Source: an uncultured Bacteroidales bacterium
GTDB taxonomy: Bacteria; Bacteroidota; Bacteroidia; Bacteroidales; UBA932
Reading direction: 5' to 3'
Length of the DNA stretch: 35,704 bases
Assembly: GCA_900321655.1 (NCBI GenBank)
Contig: ONWU01000034.1
Location: 1 to 35,704 of the forward strand
Shown here: positions 32,387 to 35,591 of the stretch, piece after piece
Layout: every line of letters starts with the position of its first letter
How positions within the stretch are numbered: position 1 is the first letter of the stretch
Notes under the pieces: model-generated
What the model saw: the letters and a program-made list of their open reading frames with translations, nothing else
Told to the model about the DNA's origin: nothing
Databases searched by the model: none
Program-made: the position numbers and the translations under genes

Positions 32387-32557
32387 GCCGGGCTTCGGGG
32401 CTCAAGCCGGGGGGCGGGCCCTTGCCGCGTTGACCGGGAATTGCCGTTCTGCGCCTTGCAGTTGTCGACGCGGCAGGCGAATCGGCCCCAGGGCACGTTT
32501 TCCTTGCCGCGTTGCCCGAAAATCGCCGTTCTGTGCCTTGCAGCTGTCAACGCGGCA
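32387..32557 (+). repeat. Left composite REP-like repeat (two 53-bp elements A1, A2)
   Basis: Two 53-bp elements, A1 32423-32475 and A2 32505-32557, lie in the same direction 82 bp apart, start to start. Each begins TGCCGCGTTG and ends with TGTC(G/A)ACGCGGCA, so the ends pair over about 12 bp around a loop of nearly 30 bases with a shared core (GCC(G/A)TTCTG, GCCTTGC). They are separated by a 29-bp spacer containing AATCGGCCCCAG and CACGTTTTCC. A further shared lead-in, GCCGGGCTTCG, starts at 32387. The whole unit recurs at 33627-33794 in the same orientation, the two copies bracketing the Y1 transposase gene. Confidence 0.92.
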
Positions 32558-32593
32558 TGGCGAGAACATACAGATTTTTCTTGCGAGGCGCTG

Positions 32594-32699: not shown

Positions 32700-33620
32700 A
32701 TGAAAGAAGCGTATCATATCTGTTTCACTTCACACGGGGAAGTAATGTTCCGGGACGAGGAAGACCACGGGGCATTTCTTAATCTTCTTGCACTTCGGGC
32801 CTTTTCTCACGACTGCGGGGTTTTGGCTGATGCCGAAATGTCCACCCACGTTCATCTAGGCCTTCTTACATCCGTTCCTACGGAGCTGGCGGCGGCTTTG
32901 CGTATGTCCTACACGAAGTATTTCAACCATAAATATGGCAGGAAAGGAAGGATGGGGGAAAAGTATACTTTCGTGTTAAAGGTGGACGGGTATGTCCATA
33001 TGATGGTCCTGCTGAACTATATTCTGAGAAACGGGCTTCATCACGCAGCCGCAGCTACTGCATTCGGGTATCCCTACTGCTCGTCCCGGGACCTGTTTAC
33101 CAAAGACATCGGCCTGTTTACGGAGCCCTCCGTCCTGATGAGCCGGGCCGATATCACATCCTGCCTTCCCCGGCACTCGGAATTCCCGGATCACTACCGT
33201 ATGAATGCCAAAGGAGTCTTTGTACGGGACAGTTTTATGGAGCTTCGGATAGCGGAACAGTATTATGCTTCTCCACGCAATTACCTGTACCAGATGAACC
33301 GTCTCACGGACGAGAGCTGGTCCAAGGAACAGGAAAAGGATAGAACCGGAAGACCTTTGACACTCAGCGATATAGAAAATGTAACCGACCGAGACATAGC
33401 ACAAATGCTGAAAAACGAATCGGGCCGGTCTTTCAGTAGTTCCCGTCTGCAGGACCTGGATGTGTGCCGCCTCATAGACAAAGATATTCTTCCCTCCTAC
33501 GGGGTGTCATCCGTCTATCAGCTAACGGATTTCCAAAAGAGAAGGATCGCAGACCAGTTGAAATACGAGTTCAGGCTTCCCCTGCACCAGATTGCCCGCT
33601 GTCTGGTGCTGCCTCTTTGA
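32700..33620 (+). CDS. REP-associated tyrosine (Y1/HUH) transposase, RAYT
   Basis: The 306-residue protein has the Y1 transposase core of the IS200/IS605 superfamily in its first 120 residues. The HUH motif is MSTHVHLGLL (His50, His52), followed by AAALRMSYTKYFNHKYGRKG, MGEKY, and LLNYILRNGLHH, whose Tyr107 is the expected nucleophile (YI.RNP.. in relatives). The remaining 185 residues are specific to Bacteroidales-type members and end in a helical LPLHQIARCLVLPL that resembles an HTH opening. It is not an ordinary insertion sequence: no IS605 ends or TnpB. The near-identical composite hairpin repeats on both sides mark it as a RAYT, a domesticated class thought to move or maintain REP elements. 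Confidence 0.85.
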   Translation: MKEAYHICFTSHGEVMFRDEEDHGAFLNLLALRAFSHDCGVLADAEMSTHVHLGLLTSVPTELAAALRMSYTKYFNHKYGRKGRMGEKYTFVLKVDGYVHMMVLLNYILRNGLHHAAAATAFGYPYCSSRDLFTKDIGLFTEPSVLMSRADITSCLPRHSEFPDHYRMNAKGVFVRDSFMELRIAEQYYASPRNYLYQMNRLTDESWSKEQEKDRTGRPLTLSDIENVTDRDIAQMLKNESGRSFSSSRLQDLDVCRLIDKDILPSYGVSSVYQLTDFQKRRIADQLKYEFRLPLHQIARCLVLPL

Positions 33621-33626
33621 CAGCCT

Positions 33627-33794
33627 GCCGGGCTTCGCGCCTTTCCGGCTTCCGGCCCTTGCCGCGTTGCCCGTAAATCGCCATTCTGGGCCTTGCCGCT
33701 GTCGACGCGGCAGGTGAATCGGCCCCAGAGCACGTTTTCCTTGCCGCGTTGCCCGGAAATTGCCGTTCTGTGCCTTGCGGCTGTCAACGCGGCA
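33627..33794 (+). repeat. Right composite REP-like repeat (two 53-bp elements B1, B2)
   Basis: This is the second copy of the composite unit. B1 33660-33712 and B2 33742-33794 are again 53 bp each and 82 bp apart, with a 29-bp spacer differing from the left one at two positions. B1 shares the inner GTCGACG end with A1, and B2 shares GTCAACG with A2, so the two-element unit was copied as a whole. The lead-in GCCGGGCTTCG (33627-33637) follows 6 bases after the RAYT stop. The last 11 bases of B2 form the 3' end and stop codon of folP on the opposite strand. Confidence 0.92.
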
Positions 33795-34692
33795 GGCAGA
33801 GAGAGAAGAGCCGGGCCGTTTGGATGGCGGGCACCACGTCGTGCACGCGGAGCCAGGTGGCGCCCCGCTCCAGGGCGGCATAATTCAGGACTTGTGTTGC
33901 GGGCATTGCTTCTTCGGGGGTGATGCCCAGCGGCTTGTAAATCATACTTTTGCGGGAAAGGCCGACGAGAATTTCCTGCGGGAAGGCCTCCTTTATTTCA
34001 CTCAGTCGCCGGAGCAGCTGGTAGTTCTGTTCCACCGTCTTGGCAAAGCCGAAGCCCGGGTCCAGGATCCATTCCCGGATGCCGGCATCGGCCGCTTTCT
34101 TTTCAAAGGCCTTGAAATAGCGGATCACCTCCGCCACCACATCGTCGTAGTCCGTGAGGGATTGCATCGTCTCCGGCGTGCCCCGCATATGCATAGCCAC
34201 GTACGGAAGCCCCAGGCGTCCTACCGTTCCCAGCATCTTAGGATCCATTTCTCCGGCCGATATGTCATTCACCAGGAAGGGGCCGATGGTATCGTATACC
34301 CGCCGGACGATTTCTGCCCTGTATGTGTCAATGGAGACGGCAGGGTACTCCCTCCCGGGGGACTCCGTTTCGCTTCGCTTCACTCCGACCCCTCCCACTG
34401 CCTCCGGCAGCGGGCCCCTCCCCCTACCCCTGTGCGGGGGTGCACAGGCCCCCGGGAGGGAGTACCCTGCCAGTTCCGTCAGCACGGGCTCCAGGCGGGA
34501 CCATTCCTCCTCCAGGGAGGGCTGGACGCTGCCGGGACGGGTGCTGCAGGCGCCGAGGTCCACTACATCGGCCCCTTCGGCCCACATCTGGCGGATGCGG
34601 GCCACGGCATCGTCCCCTGAAGTGCGGCTCCCTGCGTAGAAGGAGTCCCCGTTCAGGTTCACGATGCCCAGGATGTGGATATTGCCTATCAC
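33784..34692 (-). CDS. folP: Dihydropteroate synthase with a 39-residue in-frame insertion
   Basis: FolP joins p-aminobenzoate to 6-hydroxymethyl-dihydropterin pyrophosphate in folate synthesis. All TIM-barrel motifs are intact in 302 residues: ILGIVNLNGDSFYAGSR, VVDLGACSTRPGS, SIDTYRAE, FLVNDISAGE, MHMRGTPETMQ, ILDPGFGFAKT, VGLSRKSMI and RVHDV. Residues 78-116, between AGY and PAVSIDTY, are an Arg/Gly/Pro-rich insertion encoded by a palindromic element (34349-34461); without it the protein would be about 263 residues. The insertion falls in the loop before strand 3, so activity may survive. The start is a GTG whose bases overlap the upstream TGA stop (GTGA). The last codons and stop come from REP element B2. 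Confidence 0.93.
   Translation of the reverse strand: MIGNIHILGIVNLNGDSFYAGSRTSGDDAVARIRQMWAEGADVVDLGACSTRPGSVQPSLEEEWSRLEPVLTELAGYSLPGACAPPHRGRGRGPLPEAVGGVGVKRSETESPGREYPAVSIDTYRAEIVRRVYDTIGPFLVNDISAGEMDPKMLGTVGRLGLPYVAMHMRGTPETMQSLTDYDDVVAEVIRYFKAFEKKAADAGIREWILDPGFGFAKTVEQNYQLLRRLSEIKEAFPQEILVGLSRKSMIYKPLGITPEEAMPATQVLNYAALERGATWLRVHDVVPAIQTARLFSLCLPR
34349..34461. mobile_element. 113-bp MITE-like inverted-repeat element inside folP
   Basis: The element begins TCCCTCCCGGGGG (34349-34361) and ends with its exact reverse complement (34449-34461). It is flanked on both sides by GTAC, and beyond that by GGCAGG on the left and CCTGCC on the right. Removing the element and one GTAC restores a palindromic site GGCAGGGTACCCTGCC and the protein text AGYPAVSIDTY. 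Element plus duplication is 117 bp, 39 codons, with no stop in the folP frame. Inner hairpins are present: CTGCC-TCC-GGCAG (about 34397-34409) and CCTGTGC/GCACAGG (about 34429-34448). No coding capacity of its own. Mover unknown. Confidence 0.85.
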
Positions 34693-35591
34693 AGGAGGGT
34701 TACTATCTTTTCCAGCCAGAGGGCGTCCGTGGCATCGAACATAGCCAGTTCCTTGCTGTCGATATCCAGGACGGAGGTGATGGCTTCTCCTTCAAAAACC
34801 GGCACGACAATCTCGCTGCGGGAGAGGGAGGAGCAGGCGATGTGGCCGGGGAAAGCTTCCACGTCCGGCACCACCAGCGTACGTTTTTCTTTCCAGGCGC
34901 TGCCGCAGACACCCTTTCCGAAGCCGATACGGAAGCAGGCCGAAGGGCCCTGGAAGGGGCCGAGGACCAGCTGCTCTCCCTGCACCCGGTAGAAGCCGGT
35001 CCAGAAGAAGTGCATCCGCTCGTGGATGAGGGCGGCCATATTGGCCATACGGGCAATGGAATCCGTTTCTCCTTCCAGGATGAGCTTGATATCCTGGTAC
35101 AGGCGCAGGTAACGGAAAGCTTTCAGGGGTACGTGGCAGTAGCCCTCGGGGTTCTTGTCCAGATAGTCCTGGTGGCGTTCTTCGGCCAGGTAGAAGTTGC
35201 GAAGCGGCTCCAGCTCCACCACCAGGGGGGCTCCCACACGGCGGGCCTCGGCCTCAAAGACGGGCTGTACCTCGGCCTTGTCGGCCTCTTCCTTATAATA
35301 GACGCCCGTGCGGTAGCGCGTGCCGATGTCTCCTCCCTGCCGGTTCAGGCTGAGCGGGTTGATGATGGTGAAATAGAGCTCCGTGAGTTCTTTCAGGCCG
35401 ATGCGCTTTTCGTCGTAAGTGACGCGTACCGTTTCGGCGAAGCCGGTGGTGTCTGTATACACCTGTTCATAGCTGGGGTTTTCTCCGTTTCCGTTGGCAT
35501 ATCCCGCTACTGCTTCCTTTACCCCGTCCACTCCGGCGAAGAAGTGCTGGGCGCCCCAGAAGCAACCGGCGGCAAAATAGATTTCTTTCAT
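34689..35591 (-). CDS. MsrA-fRMsr fusion: peptide Met-S-sulfoxide and free Met-R-sulfoxide reductase
   Basis: This 300-residue protein joins two repair enzymes. Residues 1-160 are MsrA: AAGCFWG with catalytic Cys10, NPSYEQVYTDTTGFAETVRV, RQGGDIGTRYRTGVYY and HQDYLDKNPEGYCHV with a possible resolving Cys152. Residues about 162-300 are a GAF-type free methionine-R-sulfoxide reductase (E. coli YebR/MsrC-like): ANMAALIHERMHFFWTGFYR, LGPFQGPSACFRI, GKGVCGSAW, GHIACSS, SEIVVPVF and SVLDIDS. The three cysteines used by that enzyme are kept (Cys219, Cys229, Cys253). The fusion covers both stereoisomers, one in proteins and one in the free amino acid. Its stop overlaps the folP start, so folP is downstream in the operon. 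Confidence 0.9.
   Translation of the reverse strand: MKEIYFAAGCFWGAQHFFAGVDGVKEAVAGYANGNGENPSYEQVYTDTTGFAETVRVTYDEKRIGLKELTELYFTIINPLSLNRQGGDIGTRYRTGVYYKEEADKAEVQPVFEAEARRVGAPLVVELEPLRNFYLAEERHQDYLDKNPEGYCHVPLKAFRYLRLYQDIKLILEGETDSIARMANMAALIHERMHFFWTGFYRVQGEQLVLGPFQGPSACFRIGFGKGVCGSAWKEKRTLVVPDVEAFPGHIACSSLSRSEIVVPVFEGEAITSVLDIDSKELAMFDATDALWLEKIVTLL

Follow-up and report, generated by a model that had tools for sequence, protein, structure and literature searches.

An enzyme gene that is interrupted by a long palindrome and nevertheless keeps its reading frame raises two questions: where such a segment comes from, and what keeps its arms complementary once they are part of a coding sequence. 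We address them for a folP gene of an uncultured Bacteroidales bacterium (GTDB lineage UBA932), located in a window that comprises the whole analysed stretch of 35,704 nucleotides of contig ONWU01000034.1.

The folP palindrome and its predicted protein segment

The interrupted ORF (33784-34692, minus strand) encodes a dihydropteroate synthase (DHPS), as indicated by matches to Pfam PF00809 (E 4.3e-62) and to TIGR01496, where it reaches 234 bits at a cut-off of 162.6. Its reading frame continues uninterrupted across the insert, and from this open frame we infer that the palindromic segment is translated as part of FolP. The AlphaFold model of the insert-bearing protein has a mean pLDDT of 87 and finds its top structural matches in Escherichia coli DHPS. 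Residues 83-112, which follow the second helix and precede the third strand, form the sole stretch with a pLDDT below 50, and an alignment of 40 FolP rows contains no invariant column within the insert. As far as the predicted structure can tell, the segment most probably forms a disordered surface loop that an otherwise normal DHPS tolerates.

On the DNA level, the element, which we call family A, spans 137 nt (34337-34473, minus strand) and consists of two 25-nt arms around an 87-nt core. In gene orientation, the 5′ arm lies at 34449-34473 and the 3′ arm at 34337-34361, the latter with its 23 core-adjacent nucleotides perfectly paired; both were defined by the inverted repeat and by arm pairing. 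The core (34362-34448) contains sub-hairpins and is conserved among the copies. An inverted-repeat search on the window returned arms of 26 nt at 34339-34364 and 34446-34471 that are 96% complementary. The outer boundaries follow from a profile over 129 copies, in which arm pairing amounts to 0.67-1.0 up to offset 24 and falls to 0.23-0.47 beyond it, the register of each copy being the best pairing among nine shifts. Control arms with swapped partners pair at 0.29-0.67, with the exception of one invariant position. The initial annotation had described a 113-bp element with 13-bp terminal repeats; these dimensions give way to the 137-nt span and to arms that in folP continue through the GTAC sequence to 23 perfect pairs.

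The folP strand is predicted to fold into an RNA of -90.8 kcal/mol versus a shuffle mean of -64.5 kcal/mol (z -6.55), a value reached by none of 200 shuffles, and the element stretch folds much better than its shuffles on both strands. Across copies, the core measures about 80-165 nt and is flanked by 25-nt inverted arms, resulting in whole copies of about 130 to 215 nt. The core is conserved and the arms mostly vary from copy to copy. No Rfam family reached its gathering score in the window, and six copy-bearing loci gave sub-gathering matches only.

A genus-wide family inside conserved genes

Copies of the element are widespread among related genomes. A DNA search found matches in 17 of 41 genomes, the window's own among them, and a 17-base core pattern, with a single mismatch allowed, is present in 44 of the 121 genomes searched within the genus, although this pattern also matches other sequences and several of its loci are incomplete elements. 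A covariance model (R1) was built from 37 copies including the folP copy of the window, which it recovers at 34347-34464 with an E-value of 1.6e-21. Of 300 genomes from the genus, 212 contain a match to this model at an E-value of 1e-5 or better; copy numbers per genome are lower bounds because at most ten candidates were scored in each. When 198 genomes from 150 genera of the order were scanned at E 1e-6 under strict filters, at the price of missing weak matches, the sole hit was the genome of the window; another genome listed for its genus gave no match. Among the closest named relatives, many are recorded as Bacteroidales genomes of rumen or other ruminant origin. One core pattern had no exact match in viral contigs. 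In the window's genome, contigs C2, C12, C37 and C46 end inside copies, with agreeing visible ends and beside an apparent terminator. Since four contigs end within a copy, the copy number of this genome is underestimated.

Part of the family resides within genes. Of the 125 distinct copies, 37 lie in a frame that stays open across them and into the sequence on either side, and all 20 ORFs scanned from these candidates matched a Pfam family; the unscanned ones comprise nine folP loci and eight that were judged to be in the wrong frame or intergenic. The matches include TruB, MurB, prephenate dehydrogenase, methionyl-tRNA synthetase, an MnmA-type tRNA transferase, TruA, a SpoU methylase and DNA polymerase III gamma/tau, and in several of the scanned ORFs the insert separates the matched domains or adjoins them. 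The seven copies that were found whole in the window's genome all lie in frame in conserved genes, namely in folP, truB, mtaB, tilS, trmB, ygiQ and yggS, with the family match of tilS and trmB located only ahead of the insert. Genes carry the element in either orientation and use several of its frames. Inserts at one and the same place in more than one genome were found in truA, tyrA, murB, trmH and a gene that we take to be hutI-like. The initial proposal of a palindromic mobile element that sits in frame in folP and is read as a new protein segment is supported. Neither of the outcomes that the initial annotation had named as refuting it occurred: FolP sequences beyond a single clade do not have the segment, and related genomes contain many copies.

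Stop codons are scarce in the elements. The 30 coding copies average 3.73 open frames of six and the 95 other copies 3.08, versus 1.98 and 1.80 in the respective letter shuffles. Core lengths taken modulo 3, a comparison that the initial annotation had suggested, show a preference for multiples of three in the coding set (22/30) that does not extend to the other copies (33/95; Fisher p 2.8e-4); the coding set was selected by open frame and is therefore blind to frame-breaking copies. After removal of the nine folP copies, 13 of 21 coding cores are still multiples of three by hand count (p 0.027). Two loci, L018 and L120, had misplaced core ends in the pooled copy analyses, and their core lengths are also multiples of three.

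Enzymes that modify tRNA are numerous among the interrupted genes (truA, truB, tilS, trmB, mtaB and mnmA). Separately, short in-frame inserts whose translations resemble CHFERS or CHSERSEES occur in truA (L328, L335) and murB (L098), perhaps also in folP (L145) and in a further truA (L341). They presumably represent a repeat type common in intergenic DNA of Bacteroidota.

Repeated use of one loop and the maintenance of paired arms

The history of the folP insertion was analyzed with a FolP tree built without the loop. It contains 53 rows, obtained from the 56 of 69 loci that fitted the search pattern after removal of duplicates and hand treatment of two. A clade of 30 rows (support 99/97) has loops of 9-74 residues, whereas of the 23 rows outside this clade 19 have a 12-residue loop and the remaining four have loops of 9, 22, 29 and 40 residues. 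FolP sequences outside the clade do not carry the segment, and the 16-bp palindrome previously proposed as pre-insertion site is absent as an empty site from all folP rows examined. Family A occupies the loop in 12 of the 30 clade rows, seven times in one orientation and five times in the opposite one, a distribution that needs at least four orientation changes. By our labels, the other clade rows comprise four deleted forms, two probable remnants, four with a second core, three with other inserts and five with none. Two short, near-palindromic loops (L136 and L141) are nested inside insert-bearing lineages and look like deletion remnants. The shortened folP inserts preserve the reading frame. 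In L140, L144, L148 and L150, the same loop is occupied by a second family of palindromes that has a different core; the arms of this family pair as well, best in L140, L144 and L150.

Within folP, the arms change together. We compared 11 of 23 folP rows, excluding one near-duplicate, three deleted forms, four with the second core and four with other inserts, and found 292 of 308 arm cells paired, with at least two Watson-Crick types at 18 of 28 arm offsets. When partners were shuffled 2000 times, the mean dropped to 224 paired cells of 308 and the maximum was 263. In register, 241 of 253 arm pairs match versus 66-102 after sliding by 1-4 columns, a comparison in which the register is favoured by the placement of the left arms according to best pairing. 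Arm pairing is poor in the deleted forms L130 and L132 and in the other inserts L131 and L145. L135 and L163 share an identical 29-nt left arm, with the core of one reversed relative to the other. Cores from outside folP are 95-100% alike to the folP cores over the aligned part, and since they are equally alike, a reversed core could also stem from a new insertion; what speaks for an inversion in place is the arm shared by L135 and L163.

In our assessment the folP insert probably represents a mobile palindromic element of the non-autonomous kind, whose arms are kept paired by template switching. To move, the element would fold as a single strand and enter exposed hairpin loops; of the copies that land in essential genes, those that stay in frame within a tolerant loop would be the only ones to survive. 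Once inserted in a gene, the two arms would template each other at replication, a process by which they could change and stay complementary and by which the core could flip; deletions that keep the frame would also arise in inserted copies. The poorly paired arms of L130, L132, L131 and L145 and the presence of several same-armed copies in some genomes (seven in G053) speak against this reading. Such a mechanism has precedents, as excerpts of PMC8604942 describe template switching in yeast coding DNA that homogenizes arms and inverts spacers, and those of PMC8794818 describe hairpins that are made and mended by template switching.

The foremost alternative, to which we give a limited chance, is that selection on DNA or RNA structure, for instance as transposase substrate or regulatory RNA, keeps the arms complementary. 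The long stable fold and the sub-hairpins of the core would fit this explanation, and copies outside genes have paired arms, too. However, a copy that has landed in folP would not be expected to experience selection for mobility, yet the folP arms covary. Likewise, one genome (G080) contains copies with near-identical cores and different but still paired arms, and the deleted form L138 retains perfect arms around what is left of its core, although L130 and L132 do not.

Somewhat less probable still, and in our opinion unlikely, is that the insertion itself copies the target in inverted form, so that one arm would stem from the host and the second would be the reverse complement of the first. 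In line with this, copies whose cores are nearly identical bear different arms. Inspection by eye provides two further examples in its favour: arm and flank in murB of G163 read GHTPTALTP versus GHTGALTP in a relative with an empty site, and the 3′ arm and flank of folP in L127 read GREFPPISIDT versus outgroup sequences like REFPDARVSIDT or KEFPPVPVSIDT. Against it, copies located at different sites form groups with identical arms, among them seven copies in G053 as well as copies in G289 and other genomes, and in the pooled copies the information in the arms stops at offset 24.

The sites of insertion speak for the main reading. Of 97 copies, 14 lie inside a separate stem of at least 7 bp, two of them (L275 and L311) apparently at a single orthologous site; about 0.7 would be expected, which identifies hairpin loops as preferred sites. 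Speculatively, a mobile hairpin might enter existing hairpin loops and, during insertion or shortly afterwards, turn the host edges into a perfect inverted repeat, and the arms would then derive partly from the host gene. Family A could in that event be a lasting generator of new in-frame loops, readable in both directions, in essential enzymes across the genus, a scenario that we consider unlikely.

The target-site analysis gave no sign of the GTAC duplication that had been proposed for this copy. Palindromic 4-mers at the corresponding place (offsets 13-16) occur in 6 of 101 distinct arms with 6.5 expected, and being no commoner than expected they led us to reject it. Direct repeats of 4 nt or more showed no clear enrichment across copies; the largest 4-nt count (31 versus 24, offset 3) falls within a fixed CCGG-like segment. 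Direct repeats of 2-3 nt are slightly in excess around offsets 19-25, for example at offset 25, where 91 copies yielded 10 repeats of 2 nt versus 4.9 and five of 3 nt versus 1.2. There may be a very short target duplication at the outer ends.

Two further explanations were considered. Removal of the segment after transcription or translation, whether as an intron, through bypass of the hairpin or as an intein-like piece, has a parallel in yeast mitochondria, which bypass palindromes inside genes according to extracts of PMC6649704, but we regard it as very improbable: frames are open through the insert and shortened forms stay in frame, neither of which an excised piece would need, and the element is used in both orientations and several frames. 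That a 113-bp element with 13-bp ends was inserted at the GTAC of a 16-bp palindrome is hardly credible, for the letters of this single copy can be cut in this way but the arm profile, the 4-mer counts and the 12-residue outgroup loops contradict it.

Relation to known palindromes and genomic neighbourhood

The closest counterpart is found in Rickettsia. The Rickettsia palindromic elements (RPE) are described in extracts of PMC2229807 as palindromes of 105-146 bp that are present both in intergenic DNA and as in-frame fusions within conserved genes. The comparison had already been drawn in the initial annotation and holds with respect to size and to in-frame insertion in conserved genes: the folP element has 137 nt, folds strongly and belongs to a family found in frame in conserved protein genes. 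The differences lie in the phylum and in the arms, which in RPE lose identity over time (as reported in the available parts of PMC6649704), whereas most folP arms here remain paired and covary. Family A moreover occurs in both orientations, and the same protein loops are reused by several families, features given here for the Bacteroidales side of the comparison. Family A works like RPE yet is a family of its own, genus-wide, with recurrent loops and mostly paired arms.

Other systems resemble family A in part. Nematomorph mitochondrial genes contain perfect coding inverted repeats with arms that evolve together, possibly caused by template switching (PMC6649704, in excerpt). Family A shares with these animal mitochondrial palindromes the inverted repeats within coding sequence and the co-evolving arms but is a mobile family with a shared core. 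Bacterial MITEs such as Correia/NEMIS and ERIC are, in the portions of PMC2229807 that deal with them, short and non-autonomous, bear terminal inverted repeats and in many cases have open frames fused to genes. Family A has terminal inverted repeats as well, in the form of its 25-nt arms; its copies show no clear duplication of 4 nt or more, next to the slight excesses of 2-3 nt repeats near the outer ends, and its terminal repeats, unlike those of MITEs, are mostly copy-specific. Homogenization of arms and flipping of the spacer in coding DNA would be common to family A and to yeast template switching, although the yeast arms have 10-16 bp with spacers of a few bases (PMC8604942, in part), and the folP arms have 25-29 nt around a core of about 87-132 nt. 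Finally, REP units of RAYT transposases measure 20-40 bp in the sections of PMC3733652 concerned, and an identification of family A as REP element was rejected, its units of about 130 nt or more being above that size.

In the open-access literature, as far as its accessible portions go, we recognized no description of in-frame palindromes in Bacteroidales; PMC5771137 treats repeats of Porphyromonas gingivalis and names MITEs. The family would be a further extensive natural example of mobile palindromes that turn into protein segments, in gut bacteria far from Rickettsia, and offers hundreds of species for comparison. Because the arms keep pairing in coding sequence, template switching in bacteria could become measurable over evolutionary time. 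The fact that the same loops are hit many times also raises the question of which protein surfaces accept 30-60 new residues.

Two neighbours of folP deserve mention. The ORF at 32700-33620 (plus strand) is presumably RAYT-like on account of an HVH motif, matches no Pfam, NCBIfam or PHROGs family and has relatives in 18 of 31 genomes, its own included. It is flanked by 149-nt direct repeats (32417-32565 and 33654-33802) that are 89% alike. As a mover of family A it was rejected, since a comparison by eye sets its repeats apart from the element and no link was found. On the other side, an ORF at 34689-35591 (minus strand) shares four bases with the start of folP and combines an MsrA domain in its first half with a further C-terminal part of an unnamed family.
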